A stretch of 20,277 nt of DNA. Origin: a virus. Below the pieces are notes generated by a model. The model saw nothing but the letters and a program-made list of their open reading frames with translations. It was not told where the DNA came from and did not search any database. Shown one piece after another: positions 2,753 to 20,277 of the stretch. A program made the position numbers and the translations under genes. The first letter of the stretch is position 1. Every line of letters starts with the position of its first letter. The stretch is from the IMG/VR virus record IMGVR_UViG_3300042566_000259, positions 1-20,277 of that record, one strand, 5' to 3'.

Positions 2753-3730
2753 ATGGCACAGCCAACACAGACCTCCGTCCACATTGATGCAATCCTGACG
2801 AACATCTCGGTTGCATACATGCAGATGGCAAGCAACTTCGTAGCAACGAAGGTTTTCCCTCTGGTTCCAGTGGACAAGCAGAGCAACAAGTTCTTCAAGT
2901 ACACCAAGAACGACTGGTTCCGAGACGAAGCACAAGTTCGTGCCGATGCGACTGAATCAGCAGGTGGCGGATACAACTTGTCAACCGATTCCTACGCCGC
3001 TCAGGTGTGGGCTTTCCACAAGGACATCGGTGACCAGACCCGTGCAAACGCAGACGCACCAATCAACCTTGACCGTGAAGCAGCAGAGTTCGTAACGAGC
3101 CGCATCCTTCTCCGTCAAGAACTCGATTGGCAGTCAACCTTCTTCACCACAGGTGTATGGGGAACCGACTACACAGGCGTTGCAGGAACACCGTCAACTG
3201 GCGAGTTCAAGCAGTGGAGCGACTATGCGAATAGCGACCCTCTTGAGGACATCGAAGCAGCGAAGGAAAAGATTCTTTCGACCACAGGCTTCATGCCAAA
3301 CACTCTCGTTCTCGGCTATCAGGCTTTCCGCAAGTTGAAGAACCACCCAGACCTCGTGGACCGTATCAAGTACACAACCTCGAATGTCATCACCGAAGAG
3401 ATGATGGCTCGTATGTTCGAAGTTGACCGTGTGCTTGTCACCAAGTCAGTCAAGGCAACAAACAACGAAGGCGCTTCAGAGGCTTACTCATTCGTGCATG
3501 GCAAGGCTGCAATGCTTTGCTACAGCGCACCAAACGCAGGTCTCCTCCAGCCATCCGCTGGTTACACCTTCGGTTGGACGGGCGTCTCTGGTGGAATCGG
3601 TGCAACAATCGGCACCGCCCGCTTCCGTATGGAATCGCTCAAGTCAGAGCGTATTGAGGCTGAAGCAGCATGGGACCACAAGGTCATCGCTGCGGACCTC
3701 GGTTCGTTCTTCGCAAGCGTCGTCGCCTAA
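2753..3730 (+). CDS. Major capsid protein, HK97 fold
   Basis: The start follows GAAGGAA (2737-2743). The 325-aa product has the features of HK97-fold capsid proteins of the long-tailed phage group: an N-arm with ATKVFPLVPVDKQSNKFF, a mixed alpha/beta P-domain, the segment TGFMPNTLVLGYQAFRKLKN (residue 180 onward) that is very characteristic of this group, and a C-terminal RMESLKSERIEAEAAWDHKV strand followed by a hydrophobic end. There is no long N-terminal delta domain, which fits the separate upstream scaffold. It forms the icosahedral shell. This is one of the most secure calls in the window. Confidence 0.93.
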   Translation: MAQPTQTSVHIDAILTNISVAYMQMASNFVATKVFPLVPVDKQSNKFFKYTKNDWFRDEAQVRADATESAGGGYNLSTDSYAAQVWAFHKDIGDQTRANADAPINLDREAAEFVTSRILLRQELDWQSTFFTTGVWGTDYTGVAGTPSTGEFKQWSDYANSDPLEDIEAAKEKILSTTGFMPNTLVLGYQAFRKLKNHPDLVDRIKYTTSNVITEEMMARMFEVDRVLVTKSVKATNNEGASEAYSFVHGKAAMLCYSAPNAGLLQPSAGYTFGWTGVSGGIGATIGTARFRMESLKSERIEAEAAWDHKVIAADLGSFFASVVA

Positions 3731-6072: not shown

Positions 6073-7164
6073 ATGATTATCAAAAACTTTTCAATCGACG
6101 ACATCAGCACATACCGCCTATATTATGTGCTCGATAAAATTACGGACACGGCGGTTTCTTTGTATCGCCGCACCCCTGCTGGTGATGAACTGTTCGAAGA
6201 TGCCGACATCCTCATTATGCGTGATGGTCATCTAGTAATCGCTTGGAAGCACCCATTCAAGTACGCAGCAAACAACTGCTTGTTTGCCGTGGATGCGAGC
6301 ACAGAAGAAGTCGTCAACATGAATTGTTGGGAACGGCTAGTGGATTTGTACGACACCCCAATAGACAACACACAAAACGGGATATTTGTGTTCTGTGATT
6401 CTGTTGCTATCGCTGACGCAAAGATTGAGTGGCGATGCGACAACACAATGTTTGGTCCTAAATCGTATTTGAGCAACCTTGGTCAAGCCGTATCTTCGTT
6501 GAGCAGAGTCATTGCCCATGAAAACATTTTGAGTCTCCACGGTGTCGGCTACATCACCTACACACATTTGACAGATGACGAAGCCATGCGTGAGTTGTAC
6601 ACAAACAATGCCGAGTATCCATGTGTTGGCTCAACACTTTCTGAAATGTTCAAACTTTTGGTCGAATGGTCGGAAGTAACGCAACAGCCTTTTGGCAATA
6701 CCGACCCGATAGCACTGAACGCTAAAAAGTTTTTGGAAGCCTTTGACTTCGACCCAGAATTGGTGAATGACCAAGTTGACATGCAAGTTGTCAACTACCT
6801 GAGAGGTTCCACAAACGCACGGAGACGCCCTGATGGTGTCGTGCCAAACAAGCCTGAGTTGATTGATTTCCTCAAAAAAAATATGGCTTGCAGTTCTCTT
6901 GCCGAACTATGTGTTCAATATCCCGACATGTGGAACACTGAAGAAGTCCTCCATGCCGAACAGCGGGTTCTGAACGAGGGAATCCAGCGTTTCAATGAGT
7001 TTTATGGCATCCCCGAAGGCTGGACTTTCGACAATCCCGAGAGATATATAGAGCATTGTGAACTGTATTTTCACGACTCAATAGGTGCCTATGTCCACAA
7101 CCAAATACGGTTATTTGTCAACAAAACCGAAGTTCTAGACAGGGTTGCCCGTGGCAACCTATAA
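6073..7164 (+). CDS. Hypothetical protein in the adhesin block (363 aa)
   Basis: I chose the ATG at 6073 because TGAGGA (6063-6068) lies 4 nt upstream and the previous gene ends at 6065. The longer in-frame start at 5992 lies inside that gene. The product is acidic and rich in aromatic residues and Asp/Asn (MIIKNFSIDDISTYRLYYVL at the start). It is probably globular, alpha/beta N-terminally and mostly helical in its second half (KPELIDFLKKNMACSSLAEL and ERYIEHCELYFHDSIGAYVH). It has no signal peptide, membrane segment, Gly repeats or recognisable catalytic motif. Its composition differs from the flanking Gly/Ser-rich fibre genes. It could be a fibre chaperone, an adhesin head or a virion enzyme. 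I do not recognise the family. Confidence 0.82.
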   Translation: MIIKNFSIDDISTYRLYYVLDKITDTAVSLYRRTPAGDELFEDADILIMRDGHLVIAWKHPFKYAANNCLFAVDASTEEVVNMNCWERLVDLYDTPIDNTQNGIFVFCDSVAIADAKIEWRCDNTMFGPKSYLSNLGQAVSSLSRVIAHENILSLHGVGYITYTHLTDDEAMRELYTNNAEYPCVGSTLSEMFKLLVEWSEVTQQPFGNTDPIALNAKKFLEAFDFDPELVNDQVDMQVVNYLRGSTNARRRPDGVVPNKPELIDFLKKNMACSSLAELCVQYPDMWNTEEVLHAEQRVLNEGIQRFNEFYGIPEGWTFDNPERYIEHCELYFHDSIGAYVHNQIRLFVNKTEVLDRVARGNL

Positions 7165-8665
7165 CGATTCTGGAGTTCTTTACTCAGCAGCAACAACGAC
7201 CTACAACCAAGCCTTCAGTACGGTCTCTACGACGGCGTCTGGGGCTGGAACAGGGTCGCAGACGGCTACCAGACTGATTACCGATTTACGCACCGCTACA
7301 GGCTCTGGAGTAGGTTCTCAGACGGTTACCAAACTCCATACAAACATACGAACTGCATCAGGGTCTGGCATAGGCGCAGCAGCGACATCCATTTCTGTGT
7401 CTCTTTATCGAAACGCTCAAGGGTCGGGACAAGCAGTCACTGAGGGAACCGCTGTCGGTTTGCTCACCGTCATCCGCAATGCGACTGGCTCTGGCTTAGG
7501 AACACAATCCGCTACCCGCCTAATCACGGACATACGAACCGCAACAGGGTCTGGAACAGGCTCCCAAACCGCTATCAGGTTGATTACTGATACCCGTACC
7601 GCTACAGGCTCTGGAACAGGGTCCCAAGCAGTTTCAGTTATCGTTATTCGAAGCAAAACAGCAACTGGGTCAGGCTCATCTTCGTCCTCAGCCGATTATT
7701 CTGTAACAAAAACAAGAAACGCTTCAGGTTCAGGATTAGGTTCTTCGACGATTTCCTCGTTTGCAACGCTCCATGCGATTGCCACGGGCAGTGGTCTGGG
7801 TCAGGCTTTTGCCGATGACCTTCATGTACACCAAAGGGTAGGAACTGGACAAGGACAGAGTTCTTCGAATAACTCCATTGTTCATCTCGTCTACCGAAAC
7901 GCACAAGGTCAAGGAAACGGTTCAACCGCTGGAGGCGCAGAATCGCTTCATACAGCCATCAGAACGGCTACAGGAAGCGGAAATGGCGTTGGTGCTACAA
8001 ACTCCTTGACAACCCGTCACCGCTCTGCTGGAGGTTCTGGCAGCGGCACATCCTCCGTCGTTTACCGACACATAGTTTTCAAAGAAGCAGTCGGAAATGG
8101 AAACGGTTCCTCATCGTCTAACGGCAAAAAAATCGTTATGCGAACAGCAAACGGGCAAGGTGTTGGCACTGCCGCAACCGTTTATCTTCACTCGGTCTAC
8201 AAACAGGCAAATGGGAGTGGTGTCGGCAACTCAAGCGTCACGATTTCCATTTCGTTGTATCGAAATGCCCTCGGTTCTGGTCAAGGAAGCACTGAAGAAA
8301 CCGCTTTTGGTCGAACCACATCTTTCCGCTCTGCTCAAGGCTCAGGCGCTGGCTCTTCCAGCATCACACGACTATGCACAAGACCAAGAACGGTGTCCGC
8401 AAACAGTTTCGGCACTTCCAGTTCGTCATTCCGTCGTGGATTCAAACGCACCACAAGCAATCAAGGCACTGGCGCCTCGCTCAGTTTCGGTCTCTACAAA
8501 GCACCCCGAACAGGGTCATCGAACGGAACCAGTACGCAAACATGCGATGGATTCCGACGCCTTTCGATATCAGTAATAAGTGGCTCCACAAAAGTAAGAG
8601 GTCCCAATTTGGTATCGACTGCCTCTGGTCGAAGCAGTGTCGTAGTAAAGGCACCTACTGGATAA
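7151..8665 (+). CDS. Repetitive fibre protein with about 21 repeats of 20-22 aa
   Basis: I prefer the GTG at 7151 (product MATYNDSGVLYSA) because AGGG (7141-7144) lies 6 nt upstream. A TTG at 7145 is also in frame. The gene overlaps the previous one by 14 nt. After about 28 residues the 504-aa product consists almost entirely of units of consensus R-[TN]-A-x-G-S-G-x-G-[ST]-S followed by alternating hydrophobic and polar residues. The period is 20 residues, with a few 22-residue units. The ending (about 50 aa) departs from the repeat. Gly at fixed positions plus beta-forming residues suggests a trimeric beta-repeat shaft, by analogy with viral fibre shafts (inference). The role would be a head or tail fibre. 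An out-of-frame continuation to 8736 is discussed as a finding. Confidence 0.85.
   Translation: MATYNDSGVLYSAATTTYNQAFSTVSTTASGAGTGSQTATRLITDLRTATGSGVGSQTVTKLHTNIRTASGSGIGAAATSISVSLYRNAQGSGQAVTEGTAVGLLTVIRNATGSGLGTQSATRLITDIRTATGSGTGSQTAIRLITDTRTATGSGTGSQAVSVIVIRSKTATGSGSSSSSADYSVTKTRNASGSGLGSSTISSFATLHAIATGSGLGQAFADDLHVHQRVGTGQGQSSSNNSIVHLVYRNAQGQGNGSTAGGAESLHTAIRTATGSGNGVGATNSLTTRHRSAGGSGSGTSSVVYRHIVFKEAVGNGNGSSSSNGKKIVMRTANGQGVGTAATVYLHSVYKQANGSGVGNSSVTISISLYRNALGSGQGSTEETAFGRTTSFRSAQGSGAGSSSITRLCTRPRTVSANSFGTSSSSFRRGFKRTTSNQGTGASLSFGLYKAPRTGSSNGTSTQTCDGFRRLSISVISGSTKVRGPNLVSTASGRSSVVVKAPTG
7229..8562 (+). repeat. Tandem degenerate 60/66-bp coding repeats
   Basis: About 21 tandem units encode the 20-22-residue fibre repeat. 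Several adjacent units are also close at the DNA level: forms of ACCGCTACAGGCTCTGGA recur near 7292, 7547 and 7602, next to ACAGG(G/C)TC(C)CA. Others have diverged while keeping the R-x-A-x-G-S-G-x-G pattern. This points to growth by unit duplication followed by drift. Units 22 residues long occur near 7409, 7869 and 8269. Confidence 0.82.
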
Positions 8666-10616: not shown

Positions 10617-10888
10617 ACATTCGTGAAGCCGCCCTCGCTGGACCACGCAATCTTGAGGCTGCCCTTGCTGCCGCCATCAAAGCCTCTGAGAGCGCCTCTG
10701 CAGCCCTTGAAGCACTCACGGTCAGTCTTATGCTCGCCGCCTCTTTCCTAAACGAACCAGAGCCTCTGAACAACGAATTGGGCGAATGTAGGCATGTACA
10801 CACCATCGAAGTGTCAACAATGGGTGCCGTCTCAATAATCTGTGACGACTGTGGCGACACGGTCGCCGATGCGATGCACCATGGCTGA
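10613..10888 (+). CDS. Small zinc-ribbon-like protein (91 aa)
   Basis: The GTG at 10613 is chosen because CAGGA (10599-10603) lies 9 nt upstream and it makes a GTGA overlap with the preceding stop. An in-frame ATG at 10604 has no ribosome site at a workable distance. The product has an Ala-rich amphipathic helical N-terminus (about residues 5-45) and a C-terminal mini-domain with Cys59, His61 or His63, Cys77 and Cys80 (ECRHVHTIEV, then IICDDCGD), consistent with a treble-clef or zinc-ribbon site. No enzyme motif is visible. It overlaps the next, also zinc-binding, gene by 8 nt. The pair may act together, for example in regulation, but that is inference. Confidence 0.72.
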   Translation: MNIREAALAGPRNLEAALAAAIKASESASAALEALTVSLMLAASFLNEPEPLNNELGECRHVHTIEVSTMGAVSIICDDCGDTVADAMHHG

Positions 10889-11036
10889 CCAAACACCTTC
10901 CCCAGACCCATACGGGCGCACTTCCCCGACCGATGAGGCACCACGCTGCTGGCGCTGCAACCGCCTTCTCGCCATCAAGGTCACAAGACCGTGGCTAATT
11001 ATCTGCAACCGCTGCAAGGCTCAAAACGCTAAATAG
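10881..11036 (+). CDS. Com-like zinc-finger protein (51 aa)
   Basis: The ATG at 10881 lies inside the end of the previous gene. The product has two knuckles, CWRCNRLL (Cys23, Cys26) and ICNRCKAQN (Cys42, Cys45), spaced as in Mu Com (CKNCNKLL...CPRCK). Mu Com is a zinc-binding RNA-binding activator of translation of the mom DNA-modification gene. Com-like proteins are common in phages, usually near a DNA modification gene. None is visible in this window. The first 22 residues are polar and Pro-rich. Resemblance in knuckle spacing is seen; RNA binding is inferred from the family. Confidence 0.72.
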   Translation: MADQTPSPDPYGRTSPTDEAPRCWRCNRLLAIKVTRPWLIICNRCKAQNAK

Positions 11037-11064
11037 TTGACATCCAGCGAAATTTTGTTATGCT
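11037..11064 (+). promoter_or_regulatory. Sigma70-type promoter (TTGACA, extended -10)
   Basis: TTGACA (11037-11042) is a perfect -35 box beginning directly after the stop codon of the Com-like gene. After a 16-bp spacer comes TATGCT (11059-11064), preceded by TG one base away (11056-11057, extended -10). Transcription would start near 11071 and produce a leader of about 130 nt before the Rpf-like gene. This is the best promoter I see in the window, and it gives the secreted enzyme and the tail genes their own start point. Confidence 0.72.
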
Positions 11065-11101
11065 CGCTGACAACACATCGTGCAACTACACATGATGTAC
11101 G

Positions 11102-11116
11102 ACGATTACCAATCGT
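11102..11116 (+). promoter_or_regulatory. 6-bp inverted repeat in the leader
   Basis: ACGATT (11102-11107) and AATCGT (11111-11116) are exact reverse complements around ACC. The repeat lies about 30 nt into the predicted transcript of the promoter at 11037. It could be an operator half-site pair or a small hairpin. The word ATCGTTAAA at its right edge (11112-11120) recurs at 11187-11195, just before the ribosome site of the next gene. Confidence 0.4.
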
Positions 11117-11144
11117 TAAACTACGCCCCTTTTAGGAGGTTCAC

Positions 11145-11219
11145 TTGGTTAGATTCAACGGCGTTTTACGCCTGCTTCCCCGACCATCGTTAAAAGGAGC
11201 CTCATGCGTAAGCATCTAG
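11145..11219 (+). CDS. Possible leader peptide (24 aa, low confidence)
   Basis: A perfect AGGAGG (11134-11139), the strongest ribosome site in this intergenic region, is followed 5 nt later by a TTG that opens a 24-codon frame (MVRFNGVLRLLPRPSLKG at its start). It stops at 11219, 13 nt inside the Rpf-like gene. A strong site leading into a short ORF that overlaps the next start would couple its translation to that gene. TTG starts are rare, so the AGGAGG may instead reflect another structure. Confidence 0.3.
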   Translation: MVRFNGVLRLLPRPSLKGASCVSI

Positions 11220-11770
11220 CACTTGTTGCTATCACAATCATCAGCACTATCAATTCCACGCCAGCAGCAGCAAAAGCCGCAGCACCAAGCGTCCTAATTA
11301 CTTCAACCACAGCGGCAAAGAATCCGCTAGAACAACTTCGACAGTTCTCCACCGAGAGCATGCACCCAGAACTCCGTGCTCAATTCCGCACCAAAAAGGT
11401 CGCCTCAATCCGCTTCTGGGAAGCCGTTGCATGGTGTGAAACCCAACACGATTGGGAAAACGGCGGCTACTACGCAGGCGGAATGGGCATCGCTCAATCA
11501 GCATGGCGTGGATTCGGCGGATGGCAATTTGCAACCTCCCCAGCACGGGCAACCAAAGAAGAGCAAATAATCGTCGCCAATCGAATCTCGTTCCTCGGCT
11601 TCCAGACAAAGAATGTTTTCCGAACCCTCGATGACCGCCTCAATAACCGCCCCTTTTACCGTCCAGCAATCGGTTGGAGGAGTTCACAGAACTGGGGCAA
11701 GAACTGTGTCAACTGGCGGACCCGCCAACCTCTTCGAGACCGATACACACAGACACCGCTCAACCGATAA
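11204..11770 (+). CDS. Secreted Rpf-like transglycosylase
   Basis: AAAAGGAG (11192-11199) precedes the ATG. The 188-aa product starts with a Sec signal peptide (MRKHLALVAI core, hydrophobic to about residue 18, likely cleavage after AxA near 22-27). A linker follows, then an Rpf/transglycosylase-like domain (about residues 68-130): FWEAVAWCETQHDWE with the probable catalytic Glu79, GYYAGGMGIAQSAWRGFGG, and ATKEEQIIVANRI, matching the family's ATxxEQxxVAxRI helix. Cys78 and Cys168 might form a disulfide. Rpf enzymes cleave peptidoglycan glycan strands in Actinobacteria. In a phage it may serve lysis, wall penetration or remodelling. The signal peptide means export without a holin. It sits under its own promoter in the tail module, an odd place for it. 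Confidence 0.85.
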   Translation: MRKHLALVAITIISTINSTPAAAKAAAPSVLITSTTAAKNPLEQLRQFSTESMHPELRAQFRTKKVASIRFWEAVAWCETQHDWENGGYYAGGMGIAQSAWRGFGGWQFATSPARATKEEQIIVANRISFLGFQTKNVFRTLDDRLNNRPFYRPAIGWRSSQNWGKNCVNWRTRQPLRDRYTQTPLNR

Positions 11771-11922
11771 AGGTTGACCCTAGTCAACGCTTCGGCTTAT
11801 GCGATTGCCGTACAATCTGGGGCACAGCGTGTCCTAGTGACCTCGGTTGTCGGTTTGCTTTCGTGCCCTGAGTGGTCCAGACCTCAGTCGAGGTTCTGTC
11901 ATGCCCAGCAACAGGAGCACCG
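11771..11922 (+). promoter_or_regulatory. Intergenic region with GTTGAC...GTCAAC inverted repeat
   Basis: This 152-bp gap begins with a perfect 6-bp inverted repeat, GTTGAC (11773-11778), CCTA, GTCAAC (11783-11788), two bases after the preceding stop. TTGACC inside it could be a -35 box with TATGCG at 11798 after 18 bp, and TACAAT (11811-11816) could be a -10 without a good -35. A shorter repeat, ACCTC/GAGGT, lies at about 11881-11894. One ATGCGA copy (11799-11804) lies here outside any gene. I see no tRNA fold and no convincing ORF. It may be an operator/promoter or a weak processing hairpin. Confidence 0.42.
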
Positions 11923-12132
11923 ATGGCGCAATACAAGGTCAACTCAGGCATCGAATACCTCGGCAAACGAGCCGAGGTTGGAGCCGTTGTATCAGACCTC
12001 CCACCGAAGGCAATCAAGTGGCTTCGTGAAAGCGGAGCAATCAGCCCAGTAGACGGCGATGCGACTGAAGAGCCAGAAGCCGAAGAACCCGCTGCTTCAA
12101 TCGAGGAAGAAATCCCAACGGAGGAAGCATAA
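11923..12132 (+). CDS. Small acidic-tailed protein before the tail tube genes
   Basis: CAGGAG (11912-11917) sits 5 nt before the ATG, so I prefer 11923 to the upstream in-frame GTG at 11872. The 69-aa product has a compact basic N-terminal part (YKVNSGIEYLGKRAEVGAVV, then LPPKAIKWLRESGAI) and a tail made largely of Glu, Ala and Pro. The layout echoes the protein at 3748. It overlaps the tail tube gene by one base (TAATG) and so is coupled to it. Proteins of this kind in tail operons are usually annotated as hypothetical or head-tail adaptor accessories. The role is unknown. Confidence 0.8.
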   Translation: MAQYKVNSGIEYLGKRAEVGAVVSDLPPKAIKWLRESGAISPVDGDATEEPEAEEPAASIEEEIPTEEA

Positions 12133-12854
12133 TGCCTTTTCGACACGGTAAAAACACCAAAGTCCTTTCAGCAGAGTACGACATCAGTAGTTATTTGAAC
12201 GAAAGTTCAACCAGCGAAAGCGTTGAAACAGGCGAAACCACGACCTACAACACAACTGGCGGAGCAAAAACCTATGTGGTTGGACTCCGTGACTCGACCA
12301 TTTCAATGAGCGGATTCTTTGACGGAGCCGCTTCAGCAGTGGACGAAATCATGGCAACCGCAGTTGGCGCTGGCGACAGGGTCATTACTTTTGGACCAGA
12401 GGGTCTGGCGGTCGGTCGTCGTGTGACAAGCCTTAATGCGATTGAAACCTCCTATGAAGTTTCTTCACCCGTTGCCGATGTCGTCGCCATCTCTTTTGAA
12501 GGACAAACCAATGAGCGCCTTGACCGAGGAATTTCCTTGATTGATTTGGCAGCCGTATCTTCAACAGCCAACGGCACCTCACAAGACAACGCAGCCGCTA
12601 CCGCAAATGGCGGAGCGGCAAACCTTCATGTCACAGCGAATACACGCAATGGCAACACGACTTTCAAGGTCCAACACTCAGCGGATAACTCCACATGGGT
12701 TGACCTCATCACATTCTCGGTAGTCGGTTCGACGACCAAGACATCGGAGCGCAAGACCGTAACTGGGACTGTCAACCGATACATCCGTGTTCAGCACACA
12801 CTTGCTGGGTCCACGGGTTCCATCACCTACCATGCGAACTTCGCACGACGCTAA
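12132..12854 (+). CDS. Major tail (tube) protein, long paralogue
   Basis: GGAGGAAG (12120-12127) precedes the ATG. The 240-aa product has an N-terminal tail tube domain (about residues 1-135): FRHGKNTKVLSAEYDISSYL, then GGAKTYVVGLRDSTISMSGF, and a final SSPVADVVAISFEGQ. This is a form typical of tail tube subunits of actinophages. The shorter gene 12870-13289 is clearly paralogous: SSYLNE, GGAKTYVVGL and ETSSPVADVV recur. A C-terminal extension of about 85 residues (AANLHVTANTRNGNTTFKVQ, then HSADNSTWVDL and a final YIRVQHTLAGSTGS) looks like an extra beta-sandwich, possibly carbohydrate binding, that would decorate the tube surface. That function is inference. Confidence 0.87.
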   Translation: MPFRHGKNTKVLSAEYDISSYLNESSTSESVETGETTTYNTTGGAKTYVVGLRDSTISMSGFFDGAASAVDEIMATAVGAGDRVITFGPEGLAVGRRVTSLNAIETSYEVSSPVADVVAISFEGQTNERLDRGISLIDLAAVSSTANGTSQDNAAATANGGAANLHVTANTRNGNTTFKVQHSADNSTWVDLITFSVVGSTTKTSERKTVTGTVNRYIRVQHTLAGSTGSITYHANFARR

Positions 12855-12869
12855 GGACAATAAACAATC

Positions 12870-13289
12870 ATGGCTTTCAAGCACGGCAAAAACGCCTCGT
12901 TCAAGGTTGATAACTCGGGCGGAACACTGACCGACATTTCTTCCTACCTGAACGAAGTTTCACTTCCACGCTCCATTGAAACTGCAGAGACAACCTCTTT
13001 TCAGACAGCAGGCGGAGCAAAGACCTATGTTGTAGGTCTCAACGACTCAACTGTTTCTATCTCTGGAACTTGGGATGCAACTCTCGACGCACATCTTGCG
13101 GGAATCCTTGGACAAGACGCTTCGGTGTCCTTCGAGTATGGTCCAGAAGGAACAGGAACTGGCGCAGTCAAGTACACAGGCGAGGGTCTCATGACCTCGT
13201 ATGAAACATCAAGCCCAGTGGCAGATGTTGTGACTTTCTCGGCAGAGTTCCAAGTGACTGGTACAGTCACTCGTGGCACCTTCGCCTAA
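12870..13289 (+). CDS. Major tail (tube) protein, short paralogue
   Basis: The 139-aa product consists only of the tail tube domain: FKHGKNASFKVDNSGGTLTD, ISSYLNEVSLPRSIETAETT, GGAKTYVVGLNDSTVSISG and a C-terminal SSPVADVVTFSAEFQVTGTV strand. It aligns along its length with the N-terminal half of the preceding protein, so the two arose by duplication. AAGGA (12853-12857) is a modest ribosome site 12 nt upstream. Either both subunits build a mixed tube, or one forms the bulk and the other a minor or decorated fraction. The sequence cannot say which. Confidence 0.88.
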   Translation: MAFKHGKNASFKVDNSGGTLTDISSYLNEVSLPRSIETAETTSFQTAGGAKTYVVGLNDSTVSISGTWDATLDAHLAGILGQDASVSFEYGPEGTGTGAVKYTGEGLMTSYETSSPVADVVTFSAEFQVTGTVTRGTFA

Positions 13290-19907: not shown

Positions 19908-19956
19908 ACGGCTTTAATGCGATGCACTAGGATGGTCTCGCTATCCAAGTGACCCC

Positions 19957-19982: not shown

Positions 19983-20207
19983 ATGAAGCAAATCGTTCTC
20001 CGTGTTTTCGCCGTATTCGGCTATTCAAGCCTTGCCATGATTGGCGGCGCTTCAATGCTTGGCGTATCTGTGCTCAAAGGTGCAGCCCTTGCTGGAATCG
20101 TTGCTGCAAGCCAAGTAATCGAAAAGTTGGCTCGTGCTTACGCCGATGACGGCGTCGTTTCCAAGGCTGAACTAAATGAAATTTTCGGCGCTTCGAAGGG
20201 CGAGTAG
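19983..20207 (+). CDS. Holin-like small membrane protein
   Basis: AGAGG (19973-19977) precedes the ATG. The 74-aa product has a hydrophobic segment from about residue 7 to 28 (VFAVFGYSSLAMIGGASMLG), a second, more amphipathic Ala/Val-rich stretch (about 32-47) and a charged C-terminus (RAYADDGVVSKAELNEIF) that ends with a short D-x-x-x-x-K-x-E-L-x-x-I-F helix. Small holins of actinophages have this form: a membrane helix plus a DGx(L/V)(T/S)xxE(L/I)xxxF tail. Its position after the tail genes and directly before a secreted protein fits a lysis cassette. A structural membrane protein is the alternative. Confidence 0.72.
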   Translation: MKQIVLRVFAVFGYSSLAMIGGASMLGVSVLKGAALAGIVAASQVIEKLARAYADDGVVSKAELNEIFGASKGE

Positions 20208-20277
20208 CCTCCTACTTTTTGCTGTCCCGCTCCTGTCCCTGACTGGGGCGGGCTTTGCCCATGCCGATGCGATTGTC
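20176..20277 (+). CDS. Start of a signal-peptide protein, possible endolysin (partial)
   Basis: An ATG at 20176, inside the end of the holin-like gene in another frame, opens a frame that stays open to the window edge (34 codons). AAGG (20163-20166) lies 9 nt upstream. The peptide MKFSALRRASSLLLFAVPLL continues SLTGAGFAHA and then DAIV. It is a textbook Sec signal peptide: basic n-region, hydrophobic core, AHA cleavage site. A secreted protein right after a holin-like gene suggests a Sec-exported lysin or another cell-wall enzyme, but the mature domain is outside the window. The 32-nt overlap implies coupled translation. Confidence 0.7.
   Translation, partial: MKFSALRRASSLLLFAVPLLSLTGAGFAHADAIV

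Follow-up and report, generated by a model that had tools for sequence, protein, structure and literature searches.

A predicted exported Rpf-type enzyme encoded between the head and tail operons of a probable actinobacterial phage, and its possible use as an endolysin

Layout of the window and the Rpf-type gene

The stretch of DNA analysed here, referred to as the window, is a viral fragment of 20,277 bases (IMG/VR record IMGVR_UViG_3300042566_000259), in which head genes, connectors and tail genes follow one another in this order. The product of the major capsid gene (2753-3730) shares 50-60% identity with its counterparts from cultured phages of Arthrobacter and Microbacterium, which makes actinobacteria, probably aquatic ones, the likely hosts. 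The head region also contains an ORF of about 500 aa (7163-8665) with repeated RTATGSGxGSQT-like units, which is strongly diverged between close relatives, and the tail region includes two adjacent major tail protein genes (12132-13289), the first with an extra C-terminal part that is weakly F5/8 domain-like.

A single gene (11204-11770, plus strand, as are all features of this locus described below) lies between a Com-like zinc-finger gene (10881-11036), which forms the left edge of a variable slot, and the tail operon. The zinc-finger protein, which has a weak PHROG match to a translational regulator, was found at the left slot edge in the relatives examined and also in Arthrobacter phage Ottawa. 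The right edge is formed by a near-invariant non-coding block (11798-11922) with a TACAAT element and a CGTGTCC-N2-GTGACC motif, followed by the first gene of the tail operon, which is head-tail connector-like (11923-12132; ORF open from GTG 11872). At 11798-11905 the block contains TATGCGATTGCCGTACAAT and CGTGTCCTAGTGACC and is about 99% identical to the relative L004 and 89% to the relative L074. A GTGTCC-N2-4-GTGACC motif was also detected directly 5′ of the first tail-operon gene in L035, L041, L043, L050 and L052 and, as CTATCCAAGTGACC, at 19942 before a 74-aa membrane ORF of the window. The motifs of the block may be a late promoter or leader signal specific to this lineage.

The gene in the slot starts with ATG and encodes a predicted secreted Rpf-type transglycosylase of 188 aa, for which the profile search yielded a match to the Rpf catalytic domain (PF06737) with 47.5 bits at a cut-off of 27. 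RpfB, RpfC and RpfE are the nearest solved structures. The AlphaFold model could be superimposed on RpfB over 72 residues (Z 8.1, rmsd 2.3 Å); its confidence is low, with a mean pLDDT of only 53, and the Rpf core alone was therefore used. The product scored 35.2 bits against the NCBIfam equivalog NF046107, far from the cut-off of 200 for an RpfC orthologue. Cys78-Glu79 aligns with the catalytic Cys-Glu of RpfB (Glu79 codon at 11438-11440), and Cys78, Glu79 and Cys168 are invariant in 17 aligned family members. In Rpf proteins, the Cys-Glu motif and a second cysteine provide the catalytic glutamate and a conserved disulfide (PMC4648573), and Cys78 and Cys168 are the candidate disulfide pair here. 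The N-terminus, as read from the sequence, has a basic start, a hydrophobic stretch and an AAA site, likewise in relatives. The protein is predicted to undergo Sec-type export and to be enzymatically active.

Promoter and leader of the Rpf-type gene

A sigma70-like promoter, TTGACA-N16-TATGCT (11037-11064), precedes the gene, with the -35 hexamer at 11037-11042, a 16-nt spacer, the -10 hexamer at 11059-11064 and a TG in front of the latter. It directly adjoins the zinc-finger gene's stop codon, and promoter, Shine-Dalgarno (SD) sequence and leader ORF are located in a real intergenic gap. The pattern alone occurs at chance level, with 14 such sites in the window and 14.6 expected by shuffling. 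The existence of a dedicated promoter is supported by conservation in L004 and L074, not by the pattern in one sequence. Both relatives share the gene order, and their Rpf proteins are 83% and 60% identical, respectively, to that of the window; the hexamers and the 16-nt spacing persist as TTGACT/TATGCT in L004 and as TTGACA/TAGGCT in L074, while the TG is lost in L004. In addition, the window promoter outscored 97% of the 732 other upstream regions taken from this contig set, and the scores 5′ of 52 family members exceeded those of the 732 other genes (Mann-Whitney p = 4e-11, no correction for relatedness), a value that is too optimistic because the members are related, although several upstream classes are unrelated in sequence. 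In most family members, a promoter-like site begins 100-125 nt before the rpf gene, compared to 168 nt in the window; among the 52 members scored, the -35 is mostly placed at -98 to -124. As one part of the reading favoured below, we consider it probable that the gene is transcribed as its own unit, apart from the head and tail operons.

With a transcript start inferred at about 11071, the 5′ leader (11071-11203) contains an inverted repeat, ACATCGTG/CATGATGT (11075-11098, arms at 11075-11082 and 11091-11098), which is partly conserved, and a hairpin CGATT-ACC-AATCG (11103-11115), at about the same place as a different hairpin in L004 and L074. These are followed by a strong SD sequence, AGGAGG (11134-11139), and a leader ORF of 24 codons that starts with TTG at 11145 and overlaps the start of the Rpf gene (SD and ORF together 11134-11219). 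SD sequence, 5-nt spacing and TTG are identical in the window, L004 and L074. A conserved leader peptide was considered and rejected, as L074 encodes an unrelated peptide of 6 aa (MNKQWR) compared to MVRFNGVLRLLPRPSLKGASCVSI in the window. Two further hairpins are shared by the three sequences: GGCGT-TTT-ACGCC inside the leader ORF (11160-11172) and, according to the three-sequence alignment, a possible SD-sequestering hairpin of GCTTC (11174-11178) with GGAGC (11196-11200; 11174-11200 in total), in which a pair is changed in L074 (GUUUC with GGAAU). The leader ORF enters, or ends just before, the 5′ arm of this hairpin, which would mask the SD of the Rpf gene, and this suggests translational coupling of the two, as far as three sequences with mixed fold z-scores (-3.4 for the window, -2.2 for L074 and -0.85 for L004) can indicate. 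RNA structure of the window's own leader is not convincing, unlike that of a sister class described below. Identity to L004 is 96% at 11150-11199 and 67% at 11100-11149. No plus-strand terminator-like site was found in 11071-11203. Rfam, searched with the window at the gathering threshold and with six loci at E up to 1, returned only a tRNA with overlapping below-threshold matches and nothing at the Rpf leaders. An exact search with the leader core retrieved only three contigs, all of them already in the set.

In class B, a sister class of leaders (L005 to L123), phage rpf transcripts are predicted to start with a long hairpin, which is clearly supported: 97.8% of its cells are paired, doubly changed cells number 10 compared to 3.8 after shuffling, and no slid control came near. 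This covarying hairpin, AGACCCATACCAAGG...CTTGGTATGGGTCT, is located at 9786-9877 of L005 and in the homologous leaders of L008-L017, L021, L092, L106 and L120-L124; it encloses a second hairpin with variable sequence and retained pairing, and some leader copies end in a terminator-like U run. These covarying leaders are RNA elements for which the representatives searched gave no Rfam match. A general rule that rpf leaders are unusually stable was rejected, as it holds for class B and fails for the window's class and for class C.

The analysis bears on an earlier note on this DNA, which had described a near-perfect promoter with an extended -10, a 140-nt leader with an inverted repeat, and a strong AGGAGG with a possible short leader ORF in front of an independently expressed, signal-peptide Rpf-type transglycosylase. 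The gene, whose product starts in a signal-peptide-like manner, was confirmed, as were the AGGAGG and the leader ORF, and independent expression gains support from conservation. Promoter, TG and repeat are present as well, yet a promoter matching 10 of 12 consensus positions is good rather than near-perfect, and the leader comprises about 133 nt.

The Rpf family, the head-tail slot and other lysins

The Rpf subfamily is present at 75 viral loci or contigs. Scans of species genomes for close cellular relatives gave none that was convincing, the single match spanning 28 residues. The family occurs in two forms, a short one (mostly about 180-200 aa) and a long one (307-373 aa) with a C-terminal SLT-type domain, and many members are fused to SLT. 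Outside the window's clade, the inspected contigs have the rpf gene in non-structural surroundings, as in L005, where a WhiB gene adjoins it, and no classical lysis cassette was seen there.

The content of the head-tail slot varies across the wider capsid clade. There is no gene in it in L041, L050 and L070, while L043, L054 and L061 have phosphoesterase-like or other unrelated genes at this place. Secreted enzymes were found there in three further relatives: L057 carries a distant Rpf, L036 an SLT_3-type protein over the cut-off, and L035 a 54-aa membrane ORF followed by an SLT-like protein that stays below the Pfam cut-off but is 56% identical over 101 aa to the SLT protein of Actinomycetia phage DSL-LC01. 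In L052 the slot is empty and a secreted-type Rpf is encoded elsewhere. Between its head-completion and tail operons, this phage lineage swaps glycan-cutting enzymes. Shrooms and Ottawa, both cultured Arthrobacter phages, have 10-13 kb of non-structural genes at this head-tail junction (L127 17327-27600 and L128 1919-15405).

A search for other lysins gave no match to Amidase_2, NlpC/P60, CHAP, GH25 or M23 in any of 18 related records (27-159 kb) and none to PG_binding_1 in 19. As positive controls, three lysins, those of Trina, Ottawa and ValentiniPuff, would have been detected by the former families. The lysin A of Shrooms would have been recognised as well, but by PG_binding_1 alone; lysins of unknown families would escape such a search. 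PF06737 was matched once per Rpf-bearing record, except for L121 with two matches, one at each contig end. All contigs with a VanY match carry the short form of Rpf. One of them, that of the contractile-tailed relative L019, has VanY and SLT both inside a 931-aa tail protein of the tape-measure region (L140 4839-7634), and they are for this reason regarded as virion parts; the L009 contig likewise has its VanY match in a large ORF within the tail gene region. No hydrolase domain reached the cut-off in the tape measure or tail protein of the window, and in L036, whose late region lies wholly inside the contig, no further hydrolase of the families tested was found. Among these families, the only recognisable stand-alone lysin in the large related contigs thus appears to be the exported Rpf, SLT-fused or not, or the SLT enzyme in its place; both the window and L004 are incomplete and stop shortly past the tail genes, where the cultured relatives Ottawa, Shrooms and ValentiniPuff keep lysin A.

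No holin-family match was obtained, and no membrane gene lies beside the Rpf gene in the window; a membrane-type ORF near the slot enzyme was seen only in the relatives L035 and L036. At the right end of the window, a 74-aa membrane-like ORF (19983-20207) overlaps at its end a gene for a secreted Thr-rich protein (20176-20277; L004 18944-20182) in which a PA14 domain was seen in L004, and in the L036 contig a 453-aa ORF follows the tail genes at this same position.

Function of the enzyme and comparison with known systems

We favour, with moderate confidence, the reading that the Rpf protein is an endolysin that is exported and is transcribed independently of the head and tail operons, rather than a host-waking factor. 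This reading is based on the lack of the usual endolysin families in the large related contigs, the filling of the slot by other secreted glycosidases and the SLT fusions, together with the PF06737 match, the invariant Cys78-Glu79 and Cys168, the own promoter and two precedents, namely PF06737 in lysin A of Cluster A mycobacteriophages (PMC3314691) and the secreted endolysins, as in phage fOg44 (PMC6116005). In such a scheme, export by the host Sec system would bring the protein to the wall side; there, the bond between Cys78 and Cys168 could form, and the Rpf domain would then cut glycan strands. Depolarisation of the membrane through a phage membrane protein would determine the final timing, in the manner of Lys44 and other secreted endolysins, and the leader ORF with the SD-masking hairpin may tune translation. 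Both the lysis role and the translational control are inferred. Rpf domains alone are generally weak lytic enzymes, which speaks against an endolysin, as do the missing holin or membrane gene alongside, the fragmentary state of the window and of L004, beyond whose ends a lysin may lie, and the non-structural neighbours elsewhere in the family.

Alternatively, the exported Rpf could act outside the lysis programme and remodel the wall or keep or wake the host growing, while another enzyme lyses the cell; this is a serious rival, though one we consider rather unlikely. In the Rhodococcus phages Trina and NiceHouse, a non-structural block does include a stand-alone gene for a secreted Rpf-type protein, and Trina encodes a separate amidase LysA besides, which also counts against the endolysin reading and is compatible with the resuscitation or wall remodelling proposed in the earlier note. 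Such a role would also suit the own promoter and the position of the rpf gene in other phages, away from tail and lysis genes, and host rpf genes rise during infection by Rhodococcus phage WC1, which according to the authors may counter dormancy (PMC10986025). A literature search for rpf in connection with viral auxiliary metabolic genes found no paper. Against an accessory role stand the large relatives without another stand-alone lysin of the tested families, the replacement of Rpf by SLT enzymes in the same slot and the SLT fusions, which add wall-cutting power and not signalling. The earlier note had stated that lysis genes usually lie elsewhere and had suggested a use other than final lysis. 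The former is right for lysin A of the cultured relatives, which follows the tail genes, but in metagenomic relatives the slot itself holds alternative secreted glycosidases, and L036 has no other hydrolase in the tested families, so position does not support the latter. At the right end, which the note had read as a holin-like gene and a further secreted protein, both ORFs exist; the first is without holin-family match, and family search recognised no hydrolase in the second.

The gene might also be mere cargo in a variable slot, without an essential phage role, as the empty slots, the unrelated genes in other relatives and the non-structural genes between head and tail of the cultured Arthrobacter phages would allow. 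The catalytic residues, promoter and leader signals are conserved in three diverged relatives, however, secreted glycosidases recur in the slot, and L052 has its secreted-type Rpf elsewhere although its slot is empty, which makes cargo improbable. We regard as very improbable that the protein is a virion-associated wall hydrolase used at DNA entry, a role also suggested in the earlier note. PF06737 motifs are present in many mycobacteriophage tape measure proteins (PMC3314691), and the gene is indeed located between connector and tail genes; here, however, a separate gene of 188 codons with its own promoter and a signal-peptide-like N-terminus is unfused to any tail protein, other family members lie outside structural modules, and the tape measure and tail protein of the window showed no hydrolase domain at or above its cut-off.

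Going beyond the favoured endolysin reading, it is tentatively proposed that an exported Rpf, alone or SLT-fused, replaced the classical lysin A in several unrelated aquatic actinophage lineages, and that the dedicated promoter and the lineage-specific leader RNAs are lysis timers, a phage counterpart of bacterial rpf RNA control. Phage lysins and tape measure proteins with an Rpf domain, the secreted Rpf of Trina, secreted endolysins and regulated bacterial rpf leaders were already known. What is new is that these elements come together in one family, which is widespread and apparently restricted to viruses; its members are minimal exported Rpf enzymes that have their own promoters and that, in a single slot, are exchanged for SLT enzymes. 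If the endolysin reading is true, an entire family of aquatic actinophages would use an exported relative of resuscitation factors for lysis and do without a classical lysin A. This would explain why such genomes seem to be without endolysin and would provide small single-domain lysins against actinobacteria. It would also raise the ecological question of whether phage Rpf released at lysis stimulates neighbouring dormant cells.

With M. tuberculosis RpfB, RpfC and RpfE, the window protein shares the catalytic domain, the Cys-Glu motif, the second cysteine and, as predicted, secretion; identity is about 30% by structural alignment, and the window protein has an insertion before the last cysteine and none of the extra bacterial Rpf domains. 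The 5′ UTR RNA switch of M. tuberculosis rpfB combines an rpf gene, an own promoter and a regulatory leader, as proposed here for the window, but includes an intrinsic terminator, which was not detected in the window leader, whereas some sister-class leaders end in a U run. Regulated rpf leaders are known in bacteria (PMC6009663). The SLT protein of phage DSL-LC01 has homologues in the slots of L035 and L036 and in the C-terminal SLT domain of the long form; its gene has no Rpf domain, and a VanY gene is close by. The signal-peptide endolysin Lys44 of Oenococcus phage fOg44 may resemble the window protein in Sec export and in activation on loss of membrane potential; to our knowledge, it is not an Rpf-type enzyme. 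Among cultured actinophages, Trina gp044 and NiceHouse gp39 are stand-alone secreted Rpf-type proteins, as the window protein is predicted to be, but their genes are grouped with those for thymidylate synthase and methyltransferase, and they are 36-38% identical over 44-47% of the length. Cluster A mycobacteriophage lysin A proteins (e.g. Hammer gp13) have in common with the endolysin reading the use of an Rpf-type domain as catalytic domain in actinobacteriophages; there the domain is placed between others in a large protein, whereas the window encodes a minimal stand-alone version with an export-like signal and its own promoter.
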